Shown piece by piece: positions 55,330 through 64,000 of a stretch of 64,000 nucleotides of DNA; the stretch's first letter is position 1; each line of letters begins with the position of its first letter. The stretch is from Botrimarina colliarenosi (lineage in GTDB: Bacteria > Planctomycetota > Planctomycetia > Pirellulales > Lacipirellulaceae): NCBI RefSeq assembly GCF_007859955.1, contig NZ_SJPR01000001.1, positions 1,369,590 through 1,433,589 of the forward strand. The letters run 5' to 3'. The notes under the pieces were generated by a model. The model ran no database searches. It was not told the origin of the DNA and was given only the letters and a program-made list of their open reading frames with translations. The position numbers were made by a program, and so were the translations under genes.

Positions 55330-56616
55330 TCACCCCGCATCGCGGGCCAGCCGCAGACCGCTGAACTGCCACCGCGCCGCGGGCGGGAAGAAATTCCGGT
55401 ACGTCGGCCGCACGTGTCCGGATGGCGTCGCCACCGAGCCGCCGCGTAGCACGAACTGGTTGCACATGAACTTGCCGTTGTACTCGCCCAGCGCCCCCTC
55501 GGGCGGCGCGTAGCCGGGGTACGCGGTGTAGGGGCTCGCCGTCCACTCCCAGACCGTGCCGTAGCTCTGCGCGAGGCCTTGGGGTGAGTTGGCGAGGGGC
55601 TGCGGATGCAGCGCCTCGCCGGCGTCGAGCAAGCGGTCGGCGAAATCGCCGTCGACCGGCAGCTTGTCGCAGGCGGCTTCCCACTCGGCTTCGAGCGGCA
55701 GCCGGGCGCCGGCCCAGCGGGCGAAGGCCTCCGCCTCGAAGTAGCTGACGTGGCAGACCGGCGCCGTCGGGTCGATCGGTTGCCGTCCCGCGGTGGTGAA
55801 GTGGGTCCAATGCCCATCGCCCTCGTCACGCCAGTAGAGCGGCGCCCGCCAACCTTCTTCCTGGACGGTCGCCCAGCCGGCCGACAGCCAGAGCTGCGGC
55901 GTGTTGTATCCGCCGTCGGCGATGAACGCTTGGTACTCGCTACAAGTGACGGGCCGGCTGGCGAGTTGGTGGGGACGCAGCAACACCTCGTGCCGCGGCC
56001 CCTCGCAGTCAAACGAGAAGCCTTCGCGGTCATGGCCCACCTCCACAACGCCACCCGGCCGGTCGATCCACGCCGCCGCGGGCGTGTCGCCGAGACGGAA
56101 TTCACCGTCGCGGTAGACCGGGTCGGTCGGGTTCTGGGCGAGGGCGTGCTTGATGTCGGTGACGATCAGCTCTTGGTGCTGTTGCTCGTGGTGCAGCCCG
56201 AGCTCGAGAACGCGACGTTGCTCTTCGTTGGGTTCGCCGCTGGCGAGCAACAACTCGATATGCTCATCAACGCTCTGACGGTAAGCGAGCGTCAGCGCGA
56301 GCGACGGCCGCGAGAGCACGCCACGCTGCGGCCGGGGGAACGGTTGACCGACCGTGTTGTAGTAGGAGTTGAAGAGCGTTTCGAACGCCGCGTCGAACGG
56401 GCGGTAACCTTCTTGGTCGCGGAGCAGGAAGGTCTCGAAGAACCACGTCGTGTGCGCCAGGTGCCACTTCGTGGGGCTCGCGTCGGGAATCGACTGTACC
56501 GTCGTGTCCTCGGGCGACAGCGTTTCCGCAAGCCGTTCGGTGAAGCGACGCACGCGGCGGTAAGCGGCGGCCAACTCGGAGGACGACTGGGTAGCGGCGT
56601 CGGCCAGGAGCGTCAT
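55330..56616 (-). CDS. egtB: Ergothioneine biosynthesis protein EgtB
   Basis: 428 residues from ATG 56616; the longer frame upstream is not used by homologues of this type. The N-terminal DinB_2 domain has the iron-binding histidines in HLAHTTWFFETFL and LGLHHEQQHQELI. The C-terminal FGE-sulfatase domain has CSEYQAFIADGGY, APLYWRDEG, PVCHVSYFEAEAFARWAG and the last LRGGSVATPSGHVRPTYRNF. EgtB couples oxygen to form the C-S bond between hercynine and cysteine or gamma-glutamylcysteine. It is 61 bp after egtD in the same direction. No egtC/egtE follows. Confidence 0.92.
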   Translation of the reverse strand: MTLLADAATQSSSELAAAYRRVRRFTERLAETLSPEDTTVQSIPDASPTKWHLAHTTWFFETFLLRDQEGYRPFDAAFETLFNSYYNTVGQPFPRPQRGVLSRPSLALTLAYRQSVDEHIELLLASGEPNEEQRRVLELGLHHEQQHQELIVTDIKHALAQNPTDPVYRDGEFRLGDTPAAAWIDRPGGVVEVGHDREGFSFDCEGPRHEVLLRPHQLASRPVTCSEYQAFIADGGYNTPQLWLSAGWATVQEEGWRAPLYWRDEGDGHWTHFTTAGRQPIDPTAPVCHVSYFEAEAFARWAGARLPLEAEWEAACDKLPVDGDFADRLLDAGEALHPQPLANSPQGLAQSYGTVWEWTASPYTAYPGYAPPEGALGEYNGKFMCNQFVLRGGSVATPSGHVRPTYRNFFPPAARWQFSGLRLARDAG

Positions 56617-56677
56617 GCGAGAACCTCTTGACGAAGGGAGGGACGGTGCTGAGCCGAGCATCAGCGAAAGGTACGAA

Positions 56678-57625
56678 TCACTCCGCGACAAGATGCACCA
56701 CGGCAAACCAGTCGCGCGGGTCGGTCCACGCCTTGCGGACCGTCAGGCCCGCACGGGCGGCGAGCCGCGTGAAGCCGTCCAGCGTGTACTTGTGCGAGTG
56801 CTCGGTGTGGATCGTCTCACCACGGCGGAATCGTACGGGCTCGCCGGCGATCTCTACCTCGTGCTCGCGTTGCGCCACCAGCAGCATATCAATGCGGCCA
56901 TGCTCGGGGTCGTAGTCCGCGCGGTGCTCGAAGTCGTCGAGCGAGAAGTTGGCGTCGAGCTCGCGGTTGATCCGCTCAAGGAGATTGAGGTTGAACGCCG
57001 CGGTGACGCCGGCCGCGTCGTTGTAGGCGGCCTCGAGCACCTTGACGGGCTTCTGGAGGTCGATACCCAAAATGGCGCCGCCACCGGCGCCGACCGTCTG
57101 GCGGATCGAGGCTAGCAGACGTCGCGCGGCTTCGGGCGGAAAGTTGCCGATCGTCGAGCCAGGGAAGTAAGCCGCCGCGTGTGATGGCATACGCGGGAAT
57201 GTCGGCAAGGCGAACGCCTGGGTGAAATCGGTACAGACCGGCAGCACATCGATCAGCGGGTAACGCTTTCCGATGCGCTCCGCCGCCGCCACGAGGTGCG
57301 ACTCACAGATCTCAACGGGCACGTAGGCGATGGGGTCGATCAGCTCGTCGAGCAGCAACCGTGTCTTGAGGCTGCTGCCGCTGCCATACTCGACCAGCGC
57401 AGCGCGGGGTCCGATCTGCTCCGCCATCTCGGCGGCGTAACGTCGTGTGATGGTGAGTTCGGTCCGGGTGGGGTAGTACTCGTCGAGTTCACAGATCTGG
57501 TCGAACAGTTCCGAGCCACGTTGGTCGTAGAAGTACTTACAGGGGAGCCGTTTCTGGGGGCGGCTCAAGCCAGCGCGGACTTCGCTGAGGAACTGCTGGT
57601 TGGGGTGCGTCGCTAAGGCGGTCAT
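56678..57625 (-). CDS. egtD: L-histidine N(alpha)-methyltransferase EgtD
   Basis: 315 residues from ATG 57625. Typical motifs: PCKYFYDQRGSELFDQICEL, EYYPTRTE, the SAM site LVEYGSGSSLKTRLLLDEL, FPGSTIGNFPP and the C-terminal HTEHSHKYTLDGFTRLAARA. It trimethylates histidine to hercynine, the first ergothioneine step. It heads the egtD-egtB unit. The long frame upstream (to 57721) is through non-conserved GC-rich sequence. Confidence 0.93.
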   Translation of the reverse strand: MTALATHPNQQFLSEVRAGLSRPQKRLPCKYFYDQRGSELFDQICELDEYYPTRTELTITRRYAAEMAEQIGPRAALVEYGSGSSLKTRLLLDELIDPIAYVPVEICESHLVAAAERIGKRYPLIDVLPVCTDFTQAFALPTFPRMPSHAAAYFPGSTIGNFPPEAARRLLASIRQTVGAGGGAILGIDLQKPVKVLEAAYNDAAGVTAAFNLNLLERINRELDANFSLDDFEHRADYDPEHGRIDMLLVAQREHEVEIAGEPVRFRRGETIHTEHSHKYTLDGFTRLAARAGLTVRKAWTDPRDWFAVVHLVAE

Positions 57626-57938
57626 CGTCGGTCCTCTGGAGGGGGATAAGCCAGCGGCGGGATCAACCTTTGAGCACAATCCGTGCCAGAACAGCCGAGG
57701 GCGGCGACGAGGAAGGCGCAAAAAAAGGAGTGCTCGCCCTGGCGTTGCCAGCGCCTCAGGTTGGAGAGCCTACGGGCGCTATGCCGGTCGGGCGAGAGCC
57801 GCAATGGCGCCGATCAGCCGACGCGGATCGGGTCGCTCGACGAACCGCACGGAATCCCGTCGCGGTGGCTCTCGAGGAGAAAGTGACTGCCGAGTAGACA
57901 CTTCGCTGGCGACGAACCGGTGCGATTTCGGCCCACGC

Positions 57939-58037
57939 GACCACGCCCTAAGAGACCACGCCCTAAGAGACCACGCCCTAAGAGACAACGCCCTAAGAGA
58001 CAACGCCCCAAGAGACAACGCCCCAAGAGACAATGCC
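57939..58037. repeat. 15-bp tandem repeat, six full copies
   Basis: Unit GACCACGCCCTAAGA (57939, 57954, 57969) changing to GACAACGCCCTAAGA (57984) and GACAACGCCCCAAGA (57999, 58014), then a partial copy to 58037. The gradual drift of the unit along the array is typical for replication slippage. Confidence 0.92.
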
Positions 58038-58102
58038 GAGTGGCCGGGCCGAAGGCCGCCGACGGGGCGTGGTCCTGGCCAACGCTCAGCCGTTCCCGCC
58101 TT

Positions 58103-58725: not shown

Positions 58726-58816
58726 ATCAAGCTAGCCGAGAGGTGAGCTCGTGAGGATTCAAGGGAGCTCGTCGGGAGGCAAATGAGAGAACGCCGCGAT
58801 TACTCGGCGGGGTCGC

Positions 58817-58981
58817 TTACTTGGCGGGGTCGTCGCTGTGGTCCTCGACTTCCTTCACACCCTTCTTGAACTCGGTGATGCTCTGGCCAAAGGCGCGAGC
58901 GATCGACGGCAGCCGCGTCCCGAACAGGAGCAGCGCGATCACCAAGACAATGATGAGTTGAAGGGGCCCGGGCGTTAACAT
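58817..58981 (-). CDS. tatA: Short TatA protein (54 aa)
   Basis: Found by eye; too short for ordinary gene lists. ATG 58981 to TAA 58817-58819. Residues: membrane helix GPLQLIIVLVIALLLFGTRL, then FGTRLPSIARAFGQSITEFK and a short acidic tail. The FGxxxLP hinge and amphipathic helix are standard. TatA multimers form the size-fitting pore for folded proteins; the Tat-type leader of the DUF1501 protein shows the pathway is used. The neighbouring TatA/B gene is 91 bp downstream. Confidence 0.88.
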   Translation of the reverse strand: MLTPGPLQLIIVLVIALLLFGTRLPSIARAFGQSITEFKKGVKEVEDHSDDPAK

Positions 58982-59115
58982 GGCGGCGCCACCGGCGACG
59001 GCCGATGCGTGGGGGTAAGTCGTTGGGCGCGTGAGAGTTAGCGCGTCCCTTCTAGTCTACGCCGAGGGTAGTGGGCGTCAAATGGGTTGCCGCAACTGGG
59101 TCGCCGCAACCCGGC

Positions 59116-59195: not shown

Positions 59196-61010
59196 TCACC
59201 GCCGCAAAACCCCTGGGCGGGCGGCGATCCACGGGTCGCGGCCGATCTTTTCGGGATCGTAACGGTAGTAGACCTCCAGGCACATCGTCGCCAAGGCGGT
59301 CGAATAGACCCGGCCGCCGTAGCCCCCCCAAACGGTGTCGGGGCCCCAGCTGCCGGCGGTCGGTCCCTGGGCCGCTTGCTTGGGGAGGACGGTCCGCTGC
59401 ATGGCGTCGTTCCAGCGTCGCCAGGCCTGCTCGGCGCCGTTGCTGGTCGAGCGGTGATGGTGCAGGGCGAGCGTCCCGTAGTACCAGTAGTAGAGATTCG
59501 CTTTACCGCCGGGGCTCGAACGGCCCGACGGGGCGCCGGGCAGGTCGGTGAGCAGGTAGGCGGCGGCCTCGTCTTCGGCGGCGGCGCCATGCCGCGTCAC
59601 GCCGAGGATCTGGCGGCAGTACATCGCCTCGGCGGTCATGGTGCTCGAGGTAGCGCCGCGTGGTTGGTAGCACCCCAACCCGCCCGCCGGCCCGCGCTGC
59701 ACCGAGGCGACAAAGCGTTCGCAGCCGGTCCAGGTCGGGGCGGGGATCGCGACGCCGGCGATCTCGGCCGAACGGAGCGCCATCACGATCCAGCCCATCT
59801 GGCTCATGTCGCCGCGATCGCCGGGTTGATAACGCCAGCCGCCGTCGGTGTGGCTCTGCGAGCGGACAAGGTAGGCGGCCGCCGCCTCGACCGCAGGACG
59901 CAGCCGCTCGTCGTCAGTGACCGCCATCGCTTCGGCAAGTGCGAAGGTCGCCATCGAGTGGCAGTAGGTGCGGGCGTAGAGGGTCGCGTCGCCAGCGAGT
60001 TCGCCGTTGGGCTTTTGTTGGTCGAGCAAGAACTGCAGGCCGCGCGTGACGACGTCGCGGTAGGGACCGGCGAGGTGCGTGTGGCCGGCGCCCCCCATCG
60101 CCAACAGCGCGAGCGCCGTGAGCCCGGTCTCGGCGCCTTGGCCCGCGCCCTTGCGGTCTTGGTCGAGCGTGTACGTCTCGCGGCCGGCGCCCCAGCGCTC
60201 GGCGTCCCACCCGCCGTCGGGCCGCTGCGCGCGGGCGAGCCAGTCGACCGCCGCGGCGACCGCGTCGAGCGATTCTTGCGTGCCGCCTTGATCGGCCGAG
60301 AGCCGGCGCTGCGTGAGCTCGCCACGTTGCGCATAGGCGCTCGGCGCGACGCTGGTAGGAGCCGGCGTCGATGCACGGGGGACCGGAGTCACCTCCGGCG
60401 GCGTGCTCCGCTGCACCGGTTCGATCGGCGCAAGCGGGGCCGCCGACTGCTGATCAGCGGCTGGCTCCGTCGGGGCGTCGGGTGGAGTTGGCTCCGGCTC
60501 GGCCGGGCGGGGCAGCGTCGCCCACGCCTCTTCAAAGTCGGCCGTTGGCGCCGGCGTGATCGGTTGCTTGGTGGGAGCGGGCGTCTCGTCTGCCTGCTCC
60601 GTATCGGGTTGCTTTTGGAGGGGGACCGGTTCAACGAGCGGCGCCTCCGCCAGCAAGGGGGGCGGCTCGACGGCGTCGGGCTCGGGGGGCGTCTCAACCG
60701 GCGCGTCGTCTTGCTCCTCTTCGGGGACGGCCGGCGCTGGCTTGGTCTCGGGCTCTGCTTCGGGAGTCGGCGTGTCGGGCGTCCGCATGACGATCCGCAC
60801 CTTCACCAGCGGGGCGTCTTCGGCGCCGGCTCGCGGTGGACCGCCGACACGGATGCCCGCCATCGCCGCCAAGAGCAGCAGATGGGCGCCGATCGACAGG
60901 GCGCCGTAGCGATGCAACGGCCGGCGGCGCCCCCAGTCGGTGAACGCCATCGCCGCGCAGACGCCCGCCGCGATCAGCGCCAGGGCGATGAGGAGCGTGG
61001 TGAGGGACAT
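59196..61010 (-). CDS. TonB-like membrane anchor fused to a terpenoid-cyclase-fold toroid
   Basis: 604 residues. Helix 1 (about 2-23), a positive loop RRRPLHR, and helix 2 YGALSIGAHLLLLAAMAGIR. Helix 2 carries Ser39-x-x-x-His43, the SxxxH motif of the TonB membrane helix, and the positive loop places helix 2 in the in-to-out direction. A Pro/Glu/Ala linker of about 150 residues (to about 215) follows, then an alpha/alpha-toroid (about 225-595) of the prenyltransferase/squalene-cyclase class: RPDGGWDAERW, HTDGGWRYQPGD, MGWIVMALRSAEIAG and WGGYGGRVYSTALATMCLEV. The DXDD cyclase acid motif is not visible, so a binding role is likely. It is 20 bp after exbD, in the order exbB-exbD-this gene. Confidence 0.82.
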   Translation of the reverse strand: MSLTTLLIALALIAAGVCAAMAFTDWGRRRPLHRYGALSIGAHLLLLAAMAGIRVGGPPRAGAEDAPLVKVRIVMRTPDTPTPEAEPETKPAPAVPEEEQDDAPVETPPEPDAVEPPPLLAEAPLVEPVPLQKQPDTEQADETPAPTKQPITPAPTADFEEAWATLPRPAEPEPTPPDAPTEPAADQQSAAPLAPIEPVQRSTPPEVTPVPRASTPAPTSVAPSAYAQRGELTQRRLSADQGGTQESLDAVAAAVDWLARAQRPDGGWDAERWGAGRETYTLDQDRKGAGQGAETGLTALALLAMGGAGHTHLAGPYRDVVTRGLQFLLDQQKPNGELAGDATLYARTYCHSMATFALAEAMAVTDDERLRPAVEAAAAYLVRSQSHTDGGWRYQPGDRGDMSQMGWIVMALRSAEIAGVAIPAPTWTGCERFVASVQRGPAGGLGCYQPRGATSSTMTAEAMYCRQILGVTRHGAAAEDEAAAYLLTDLPGAPSGRSSPGGKANLYYWYYGTLALHHHRSTSNGAEQAWRRWNDAMQRTVLPKQAAQGPTAGSWGPDTVWGGYGGRVYSTALATMCLEVYYRYDPEKIGRDPWIAARPGVLRR

Positions 61011-61030
61011 CGTCTGGCGCGCCCTCGGGG

Positions 61031-61468
61031 TTAACGCCGGATCGTGTCGGACGTCTCAACCGAGACGCCCACGTTGGCGATCCCCGCGGCGCGGCACGCC
61101 GTGAGCGCGGCGGCGACGTGCTGGAAGTCGCAACGCGAATCGCCGTGGATCAGCACGGCGGGGCCGTCGATCGCCGTGGAAGCTTCTTTGGCCGCTTGGA
61201 GGTCCGCCTTCAGCTCGTCGATTGAACGGGGAACGCCGTCGAGCGTCACGACCCCCTCGGCGCTAACGCTGACAACACGCTCTTCCTCGACCGCGGCGAC
61301 TGACGTGCCGTCCGATCCAACCGTGGGCAACTCGAGCTCGACGGCGCGCTCGACCTGGGCGAACTGCGTGGCGGTCATAAAGAAGATGAGCAGCAAGAAC
61401 ACGACGTCGATCATCGGCGTCAGGTTCAGCTGCAGCGGGTCGTCGCTAGTGGTGCGTTTTAGGGGCAA
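61031..61468 (-). CDS. exbD: ExbD/TolR-family biopolymer transport protein
   Basis: 145 residues. N-terminal LNLTPMIDVVFLLLIFFMTA is the ExbD membrane helix with its proton-carrying Asp; the periplasmic domain includes VVTLDGVPRSIDELKADLQA and VLIHGDSRCDFQHVAAALTA. With ExbB it uses the proton-motive force to drive a TonB-type partner, which here should be the toroid protein encoded downstream. Spacing to exbB is 67 bp and to the toroid gene 20 bp. Confidence 0.93.
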   Translation of the reverse strand: MPLKRTTSDDPLQLNLTPMIDVVFLLLIFFMTATQFAQVERAVELELPTVGSDGTSVAAVEEERVVSVSAEGVVTLDGVPRSIDELKADLQAAKEASTAIDGPAVLIHGDSRCDFQHVAAALTACRAAGIANVGVSVETSDTIRR

Positions 61469-61535
61469 CGGAATTTGGATTGCGGAATGCGAAATGCGGA
61501 ATAGCGACGGACGAGCCGCGACCGTCAGGGAGGCG

Positions 61536-62213
61536 TCAGGCCGCCTTGCGGGAGCGACGCGACTTTGCCGAGCCGCGTTCTTCGAGCGCCTCGGCGGAGA
61601 TCAAGTTGACGAGCTCCTGGCCGTGGCGGTCGATCTGCCCAACGAGTGAGTCGATCCGGCCGGTGAGGTGGAGGTAGGCGATCATGGCGGGGATCGCGAC
61701 GCCCAAGCCCGCCGCGGTCGACATGAGCGCCTCGCTGATGCCGCCGGCGAGCAGCTCGGGCTTGCCCATCGCCGAGGCGCCGGCGATGGCGTCGAACGCC
61801 TCGCGCATCCCCCAGACGGTTCCGAGCAGGCCGAGCAGCGGGCAGATCTGGCTGACGCCGCTGATGACGCGGACGTATTTGCGGAGGTCGGCGGCGGCGC
61901 GCTCGCCTTCGTCAAGAATCGCCTGTTCGACCTCGACCGCGGGGCGGCCCCAGCGACGCAGGCCCGCCTCGAAGACGCGGGCGATGACGCTCTCGTTCTC
62001 TTCGCAAAGGTCGAGCGCGCCCGACTTGTCGACGGCGCCCTCTTCGACCTGCGTTAGAACGCAGTGGACGAAACGCTTCGGCACGACGCGGCTGCGTCGC
62101 AGGGCCATCAACCGCTCAATAACGCAGAGCACCATCACGACCGACGCAATGGTGATCGGGATGAGCAGCGGCCCGACGAGCAGCAGCGTTTCAAGGAGTG
62201 TGGAGTCCGACAT
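61536..62213 (-). CDS. exbB: ExbB/TolQ-family MotA-type proton channel protein
   Basis: 225 residues with three membrane helices: LVGPLLIPITIASVVMVLCV (N-terminal), GVSQICPLLGLLGTVWGM and MSTAAGLGVAIPAMIAYLHL. The conserved LLGLLGTVWGMREAFDAI and AAGLGVAIPAMIAY blocks carry the channel-lining residues. The C-terminus is Arg/Lys-rich (GSAKSRRSRKAA). It begins the operon, which probably has its promoter in 62214-62369. ExbB pentamers enclose an ExbD dimer. Confidence 0.94.
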   Translation of the reverse strand: MSDSTLLETLLLVGPLLIPITIASVVMVLCVIERLMALRRSRVVPKRFVHCVLTQVEEGAVDKSGALDLCEENESVIARVFEAGLRRWGRPAVEVEQAILDEGERAAADLRKYVRVISGVSQICPLLGLLGTVWGMREAFDAIAGASAMGKPELLAGGISEALMSTAAGLGVAIPAMIAYLHLTGRIDSLVGQIDRHGQELVNLISAEALEERGSAKSRRSRKAA

Positions 62214-62369: not shown

Positions 62370-62975
62370 TCAGTTGAGCGGCGGTAGGCATTCTGCGTTG
62401 TCGACGTTGCCCACCATGTGCAGGTGGTTGTGGTCGATGTAGAGCACCTCGCGGGCGTCCTGATCGCGGATCGTGTGAGGCACCGGCCACCCGACGCGGC
62501 GGACGTCCTCGTAGTAAACCGTGCACTTGTAGTGGGCGTGGTGCTGTTGGGCGGGCCCGATCATCGGGTAGACCCGCACCGGATCGACGTAGTCGGCGAT
62601 CTTCTCTTTGACGATCCGCACGTCGTTGCGGTTGCGTTCCCACAAGAGCGGGATGCCGCCCTCGATGGGCCGGGCCTTCTCAAGGGCGCGGATCACCTCG
62701 TCGTCGCTCGGCGGGTCGAGCGCCACGGGCGGTCCGCCCGAGTCGTCGATCGGGCCGAGGATCGGCACGCGGTCGTACCGTTCGGCTTCCCAGTACTTGT
62801 CCTCTTCCTCTTTTTGGAGGTAGGGAGAGATCGGAATGGGAATCGAAGCGATCCCCAAACTCGGGCCCTGGCTGACCAAGCCCCAGAAGCATCCGGTGCT
62901 GGTGGTCGTGACGACTGCCGCCAGCATTGCTGCTGTGGCGAGTTGCGGCCGGAGCATCATGCGTTGCCGTGCCAT
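62370..62975 (-). CDS. Lipoprotein of unknown function
   Basis: 201 residues from ATG 62975 (AGAGGG upstream); the longer frame starts without protein-like residues. The signal has a lipobox-like TSTGC (Cys about 29). Then a Pro/Ile-rich segment SIPIPISPYLQKEEEDKYWE, a compact acidic domain with VRIVKEKIADYVDPVRVYP, and the His-rich QQHHAHYKCTVYYEDVRRVG and YIDHNHLHMVG. The His clusters and C-terminal Cys could bind metal. I know similar proteins in planctomycetes as hypothetical only. It lies 156 bp upstream of exbB on the same strand and may share its transcript. Confidence 0.75.
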   Translation of the reverse strand: MARQRMMLRPQLATAAMLAAVVTTTSTGCFWGLVSQGPSLGIASIPIPISPYLQKEEEDKYWEAERYDRVPILGPIDDSGGPPVALDPPSDDEVIRALEKARPIEGGIPLLWERNRNDVRIVKEKIADYVDPVRVYPMIGPAQQHHAHYKCTVYYEDVRRVGWPVPHTIRDQDAREVLYIDHNHLHMVGNVDNAECLPPLN

Positions 62976-63138
62976 CGAAAAGGACCCTCTCGTCTGAAAG
63001 CGAGCGGCTGGGGCGCGATCCGTCGCCACCCGCCGTTTTGTAGTTCGATAGTCTTCTTATCGTGTGAAGCTGGGCGGAACTTGCGGGTTATTACGAAAAA
63101 ACCGGCAGACCCACGGCGGCCTCTGCTAGCAACAATCT

Positions 63139-63267: not shown

Positions 63268-63309
63268 AAAAACCGCGACGCCCTCGGGAGAAGCTTCTCC
63301 CGAGGGCGT
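63268..63309 (-). terminator. Intrinsic terminator of the BON-domain gene
   Basis: Perfect palindrome 63278-63309 (ACGCCCTCGGGAGAAG and its complement) followed in the leftward direction by GCGGTTTTT (A-run 63268-63272). The T-tract begins 5 bases after the stem. Confidence 0.8.
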
Positions 63310-63338: not shown

Positions 63339-64000
63339 TCAGTGGCACTCTTGGTGGCTGAAGTCGAGGAACCACCAGCCGTCGTCCCACTCGAGCGTCA
63401 CCTTCCGCCATCCCAGCGGGACCTGCGGGTAGGGGTGGAACGGCCCGATGTACGGCCAAGCCGAGGCCGAGTACTGCTGCGGGTAGCTCACCGCGGCGTA
63501 GTTCGGGTGCGCGGCGTAGCTCGGCCAGGCGTAGTTCGGCATGTTGGCCTGGTCGTAGCTGACGCCCTGGGCGCCGGCCGTGCTTTGGCCCTGGGGCATC
63601 CCGCCAGCGTAGGCGGCGCCGTACTGGGCCGGCTGAACCGGGCCACCCTGCATGGGACCCTGCTGCATGGGACCCTGCTGCATCGGACGCTGCTGCATGT
63701 TGGGCTGACCGCCCCCCATCTGCCGCATCGCTAGCGGCATGCCACGCGAAGGAGCCTGACGCGACGGGGCCTGGGCGGCCGGCATCGCGGCGGGGTTCGG
63801 CGGCAGCGGCGCCGGCGCCTCGAGTTCGGGCTGGTCGAGCGACGCCAACTGTAGGGCGTCGTTGGTCTTGGTCTCGACCTTCTCAGCGGCCGAAGCCTCG
63901 ACGATCTCGAGCTTGTTCACGACGTGCGAAACGCCCTCCACTTCGCGGGCGAGTCGCTCGGCGGTGGCGGATTGGTCGGCGCTGGTGACCGAGCCCAAGA
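63339..64000 (-). CDS. BON-domain protein with Met/Gln/Pro-rich linker, 5' partial
   Basis: The gene runs off the right edge, so the start and any signal peptide are missing; 220 codons are visible. First comes the end of a BON domain (LGSVTSADQSATAERLAREV, GVSHVVNKLEI), then an Ala/Pro-rich stretch, a low-complexity tract with MQQGPMQQGPM repeats, a Tyr/Ala/Pro-rich segment (NYAWPSYAAHPNYAAVSY), and a short C-terminal domain GWRKVTLEWDDGWWFLDF ending HQECH. BON domains usually bind membranes or phospholipids in periplasmic or secreted proteins. Linker and end are like several planctomycete hypothetical proteins. Confidence 0.8.
   Translation of the reverse strand, partial: LGSVTSADQSATAERLAREVEGVSHVVNKLEIVEASAAEKVETKTNDALQLASLDQPELEAPAPLPPNPAAMPAAQAPSRQAPSRGMPLAMRQMGGGQPNMQQRPMQQGPMQQGPMQGGPVQPAQYGAAYAGGMPQGQSTAGAQGVSYDQANMPNYAWPSYAAHPNYAAVSYPQQYSASAWPYIGPFHPYPQVPLGWRKVTLEWDDGWWFLDFSHQECH

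Follow-up and report, generated by a model that had tools for sequence, protein, structure and literature searches.

A conserved exbB-exbD operon of Botrimarina colliarenosi encodes a TonB-like protein with a predicted alpha/alpha toroid as its tip

The TonB-ExbBD and TolA-TolQR systems of Escherichia coli pair motor genes of the ExbB/ExbD type with a transducer that possesses a Ser-x3-His membrane helix and a Pro-rich periplasmic linker. In TonB, Ser16 and His20 are described as contacting ExbB at Ser34 and Trp38, behind which lies Pro190 (PMC12215075), and the segment 45-ISVTMVT-51, downstream of His20, provides the reference for the D-box, whose pattern follows PMC10907165. Tips other than the TonB domain exist, as reported in a 2025 paper on vWA-tipped transducers (PMC12204202), which describes a TonB/TolA-like helix with a motor-binding His, a disordered linker, a non-TonB globular tip, and adjacent motor genes. 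Here, we analyze a 64,000-nucleotide stretch of Botrimarina colliarenosi DNA (the window; positions 1369590-1433589 of contig C1, NZ_SJPR01000001.1, in the 5.27-Mb genome G000), in which exbB and exbD precede a gene, termed T, whose product shares these features and is predicted to end in an alpha/alpha toroid. We propose, with a probability of roughly 0.8, that the exbB-exbD-T operon encodes a periplasmic force transducer driven by the proton motive force (PMF), in which the toroid takes the place of the TonB/TolA tip.

The vWA systems resemble the toroid loci also in the TPR gene found upstream in bacteria of the Planctomycetes-Verrucomicrobia-Chlamydiae group, a gene present at many toroid loci; unlike them, with a vWA fold often accompanied by a tolR-like gene pair (PMC12204202), the operon described here combines a toroid with one exbD. 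The words toroid, prenyltransferase, squalene, and cyclase do not occur in the main text of that paper, and no toroid-tipped transducer was found among the matches listed in a search of the open-access literature.

The operon and the predicted architecture of T

The genes exbB (61536-62213), exbD (61031-61468), and T (59196-61010) form a tight tandem on the minus strand, separated by 67 and 20 bp in the list of open reading frames (ORFs), as an earlier note on this DNA had claimed. The 225-residue product of exbB is a MotA/TolQ/ExbB proton-channel subunit (Pfam PF01618, MotA_ExbB; E value of 3.5e-28), and exbD, which has a TTG start, encodes a 145-residue ExbD/TolR subunit (PF02472, ExbD; 9.6e-25); together they carry the family domains and the Thr/Thr/Asp of the proton path. 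T, of 604 residues, was classified as a toroid-tipped TonB-like protein from Pfam and AlphaFold2, and its parts are all on the minus strand, the coordinates of the second helix having been obtained by codon arithmetic from position 61010. Two membrane helices are predicted (residues 3-22 and 31-52), and Ser39-xxx-His43 lies in the second (60855-60920); the earlier note had recognized the motif and assigned it to an in-to-out helix. A D-box-like strand (residues 69-75, VKVRIVM; 60786-60806) begins 26 residues after His43. The Pro/Glu linker, put at about 150 residues in the earlier note, is predicted to be disordered (predicted local distance difference test of about 40 to 60) and is longer, with 176 residues (53-228; 60327-60854) of Pro/Ala/Glu-rich composition, including 44 Pro, and a net charge of -20.

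The C-terminal part (about residues 230-590; 59241-60323) is modeled by AlphaFold2 as a confident alpha/alpha toroid of approximately 360 residues, whose nearest folds are squalene-hopene cyclases at 15 to 20% identity in structural alignments; the model thus agrees with the terpenoid-cyclase-type toroid proposed earlier for this domain. Its fold neighbors are mostly enzymes, mannanases and cellobiose epimerases among them. Of six Pfam matches, SQHop_cyclase_C, in the C-terminal part of T, is the sole clear one above the cutoff (E value of 1.1e-8), the Pec_lyase match is weak, and none belongs to the vWA family; TonB_C (PF03544) has no match in T. The predicted fold is that of the class II terpene cyclases. 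The DxDD acid motif was nonetheless found in the toroid half (the C-terminal 62%) of 0/120 homologues, with three carrying it outside that half, at residues 110-146. The lack of this canonical motif, which the earlier note had named as a finding that would speak against its proposal if present, argues against class II cyclization by the toroid. T was therefore not filed as a true class II terpene cyclase, although the fold is shared: from squalene-hopene cyclases and single-toroid class II cyclases (8paj, 8pak, and MstE) it also differs in its membrane anchor, its motor genes, and its low identity. Measured against TonB and TolA, T has a different tip and an extra first membrane helix, so that the C-terminal domain would not place it in either family, while the working parts at the membrane appear, from sequence, to be largely there. 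The nearest named proteins in the homologue searches come from Botrimarina, and three listed homologues (P0077, P0101, and P0108) are named "outer membrane biosynthesis protein TonB" by the Joint Genome Institute.

Conservation of the coupling residues and of gene order

Conservation in T was assessed with the same 120 homologues, 115 of which cover the second helix. His43 is kept in 115/115 and Ser39 in 112/115, the other three having Ala, which bears out the conservation that the earlier note had called for. These are the only positions of the helix conserved in at least 93% of the sequences, followed by Leu46 (105/115). By comparison, Ser-xxx-His occurs in 9/282 hydrophobic segments of other open frames of at least 150 residues, real genes or not, at the same loci, and the conservation of the motif at one fixed place thus exceeds chance. 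The remainder of the SHLS pattern (Ser-x3-His-x6-Leu-x3-Ser) is not kept in T, position 50 being mostly Ala or Thr and position 54 mostly Arg. The motif was recounted in two sets of loci under a 12-residue rule; stricter counters, which allowed no charge over about 16 positions, reported few. Among the 58 loci of the order (57 relatives and the window's own copy, with relative G024 left out), four of which are at the level of paralogues (L054 and L056-L058), the motif Ser is present in 56, one of them (L053) having an Asn, with Ala in one and the N-terminal part missing in one (L032). Among 80 named loci, the Ser is present in 74, Ala in 2, and the N-terminal part is missing in 4 (L214, L215, L217, and L230).

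The D-box-like pattern was detected in 107/115 close homologues, where 1.4 would be expected from shuffled sequences. Its commonest offset, His+25 (63/107), equals the distance from His20 to Ile45 in E. coli TonB. In wider sets from the order, the strict pattern occurs in 25/77 and 22/57 sequences and a relaxed one in 58/77 and 39/57. The strand, at the spacing of E. coli TonB, is a feature of close T homologues.

The motor proteins were compared across 54 aligned operon copies. ExbB Ser24, Pro125, Thr132, Thr166, and Pro175 are invariant (54/54), the last four lining up with the Pro, Thr, Thr, and Pro that TolQ/ExbB chains conserve, and so is ExbD Asp21, whose counterpart in an aligned ExbD chain is the pore Asp at residue 25. 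With respect to the E. coli docking network Ser34-Trp38-Pro190, the Pro is both aligned and invariant; Ser24 would be the counterpart of Ser34 by its position in the first helix, which the TolQ/ExbB alignment stops short of.

T-like matches were found in 59/59 genomes of the order, and both exbB and exbD lie upstream of T on the same strand in 54/58 order loci, one of which (L058) is a weaker, paralogue-like trio; at one further locus exbD is present and the contig then ends. During the sorting of clusters near the loci, two were excluded by eye: one from 46 loci, judged to be exbB read out of frame, and one of 284 members on the opposite strand. In a collection of named loci that overlaps the other genome sets (best 80 of 518), 77 loci have exbD upstream and 75 have exbB, those lacking either gene stopping at a contig end, and all records are planctomycete by title except one labeled only "bacterium". 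Adjacency by chance was rejected on the basis of these two sets, and the linkage to exbBD expected by the earlier note is present. Outside the order, the loci examined were the highest-ranking matches: 20 class-level loci from 36 same-class genomes with a match (an extra one, L180, was taken with another set) and 13 phylum-level loci from 139. Directly upstream of T, exbD is found in 18/20 class-level loci, and the complete trio in 6/13 phylum-level loci. Several class-level loci, among them L142 and L151, have exbD-T with no exbB detected alongside; at L142, the pair sits behind an ADP-glucose pyrophosphorylase-like gene, as judged by eye. The toroid profile matches 191/294 genomes of the phylum at an E value of 1e-40, paralogues counted in.

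Other toroid proteins and the genomic context

A profile search identified seven toroid proteins in G000, T included. In two of the others, Ser-xxx-His is again part of a membrane helix (SFALH and SGMLH), and neither exbB nor exbD was found in the 13 to 14 kb around them. Searches with these two paralogues returned 5338/8000 and 4569/7998 scored candidates at an E value of 1e-3, sets that may overlap. Among the best 120 of each family, the Ser is kept in 114/116 and the His in 115/117 in one and in 117/117 and 119/119 in the other. The one that was modeled is predicted to have a single helix (residues 10-30, with Ser14/His18), a disordered linker, and a toroid. Because the other four toroid proteins, which by eye have starts like those of secreted proteins, lack the motif, Ser-xxx-His does not come with the toroid fold in general. 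Another kind of toroid protein, about 790 to 1240 residues long, combines Ser-xxx-His with an adjacent exbD at 6/10 loci (L261, L262, L264, L266, L268, and L269; exbB also in four), a count from which no rate follows, as the ten were selected for an exbD or toroid match of interest.

To place the operon in its envelope context, 24 genomes including G000 were surveyed. TonB_C was found in 6/24 and the receptor family PF00593 in 13/24, whereas TolB_N (PF04052) was found in 0/24, G000 included; Omp85 is present in 23/24, G000 among them, and OmpA/Pal-type domains and ExbD in 24/24. In G000, TonB_C and PF00593 have no match; the earlier note had reported no TonB-dependent receptor in the window. 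A canonical TonB or Tol system, with TonB_C, PF00593, or TolB_N, was rejected for G000 on these absences, the plug family lying outside the search and the genome being 94.8% complete, so that single absences there are not proof. Other exbB and exbD genes do exist elsewhere in G000, including tandem exbD-exbD pairs with exbB at C3:265935-266776, C1:1572401-1573406, and C2:722712-723643, the last near a secreted-looking toroid protein (L137).

Close to the operon, a TPR-family gene overlaps exbB or lies at most 270 bp upstream of it in 34/58 order loci (median distance, 4 bp; e.g., L035:4866-8330) and is missing from the window's own copy. Its product could be a partner of the toroid protein, and the grouping of TPR gene, motor, and transducer may be likened to that of CpoB, the TPR protein that accompanies Tol, in Tol-Pal and to the vWA systems (PMC12204202). 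A BON-family gene lies 0.7 to 3.8 kb upstream in 36/58 loci, including the window (63339-63998); the neighbor families were checked with Pfam on one TPR member and two BON members. In the window, a strong terminator-like hairpin (63278-63309, minus strand) stands between the BON gene and the operon, and a 219-residue ORF directly ahead of exbB (62370-63029) has no Pfam match and, by eye, a start like a lipoprotein signal. Downstream of T are a TatA/B-type protein (PF02416; 58354-58725), a second short frame beside it with a similar reading (about 58815-58982), and a short tandem DNA repeat with a unit of about 15 bases (GACCACGCCCTAAGA and variants) within open frames of both strands (about 57930-58050). 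Two minus-strand ORFs at 55330-57721 resemble the ergothioneine genes egtB and egtD.

Possible roles of the toroid

Because the marks of a TonB-type transducer are conserved at the expected places while the tip is of another fold, the operon is best read as encoding a PMF-driven force transducer. In the mechanism that we propose, proton passage via ExbB (Thr132 and Thr166) and ExbD (Asp21) would rotate or strain the motor. Ser39/His43 would mediate docking of the second T helix on ExbB, and the periplasmic dimer of ExbD would capture the D-box-like strand, as it does that of E. coli TonB. The linker would transmit the pull across the periplasm to the toroid, which may grip a partner, be it a protein, a polymer, or a lipid, in the vicinity of the cell wall or outer membrane. 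The motif, which two other toroid families also keep, the gene linkage, the missing toroid DxDD, the D-box-like strand, the pore residues of ExbB and ExbD, and the lack of TonB_C and PF00593 matches in G000 support the earlier proposal of a PMF-driven device with the toroid as its business end; that the motor drives T and that the toroid holds a partner is what we infer from them.

Several observations weigh against force transduction by T. The place expected for ExbB Trp38 (Ser24+4) is Trp in 0/54 copies (29 Leu, 15 Val, 4 Met, 2 Ile, and 4 others). The motor genes are both lacking at 3/58 order loci, all among the five weakest matches and probably paralogues; exbB was detected beside exbD-T in only 3/20 class-level loci, and both motor genes are missing from their place at 7/13 phylum-level loci, one of which begins at a contig end. 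The D-box fades with distance, the relaxed pattern occurring in 4/25 class- and phylum-level members, and in the two paralogue families it does not clearly rise above chance (0/114 with 4.8 expected and 11/117 with 4.3 expected). Many invariant charged residues are kept in the toroid, as might be the case for an enzyme.

This last point bears on the alternative that the toroid is merely an anchored periplasmic enzyme (a cyclase, glycan lyase, or epimerase-like protein), with exbBD serving another protein. The invariant H351, E360, D401, E461, E579, and R583 leave room for other chemistry or for ligand binding, and the weak Pec_lyase and SQHop matches and the many enzymes among the fold neighbors are of a piece with them. 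A plain anchor, however, would need neither Ser-xxx-His nor a D-box at TonB spacing, and the linkage to exbBD and the missing toroid DxDD also count against the enzyme, which we consider improbable. Even less credence is due to T as a sensor or plug, in which ligand binding by the toroid would gate the ExbBD proton channel and the motor would not move the toroid. A structural study of the E. coli Ton and Tol systems suggests that the ExbB pore changes when the TonB helix is put under tension (PMC12215075), but the long linker and the TonB-like parts would be better suited to the transmission of force.

Other alternatives concern what a force-transducing toroid would act on. In a narrower form of PMF-driven transduction, the system would substitute for Tol-Pal, pulling on the outer membrane or on tethers during budding or division. 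The absence of TolB_N from genomes that have Omp85 and OmpA/Pal-type domains suggests such a role, as do the TPR-family gene near exbB, reminiscent of CpoB with Tol (PMC12204202), and the upstream BON-family gene; the TPR gene is absent, however, beside the window's own copy, and G000 has other exbB and exbD genes. We regard this substitution as possible, if doubtful. Less likely again is action in the manner of TonB during uptake, with the toroid holding on to a receptor or to a polymer being taken up, for example at crateriform pits. Dextran uptake by Gemmata obscuriglobus was recorded in 0/816 cells treated with carbonyl cyanide m-chlorophenylhydrazone versus 23% of 1,065 untreated cells in the data of PMC5394234, and the toroid fold is common to several sugar-acting enzymes, but PF00593 is without a match in G000.

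Tentatively, and with somewhat more doubt than confidence, toroid-tipped proton-driven transducers could form a phylum-wide class in the Planctomycetota, in which thousands of proteins named "squalene cyclase" or "prenyltransferase repeat" would be motor-coupled grippers and the exbBD-linked one would replace the energized link between inner and outer membrane provided by TolA-TolB-Pal. The genome survey raises the question of how energy reaches the planctomycete outer envelope: TolB_N was detected in none of the 24 genomes and TonB_C was missing from 18, while Omp85 was present in 23. If PMF-driven transduction by T is correct, a large group of misnamed proteins would be a prime candidate for energizing this envelope, with Ser-xxx-His and the D-box amenable to point mutation, and the ExbBD-type motor would accept quite different tips: TonB_C, vWA, and the toroid.

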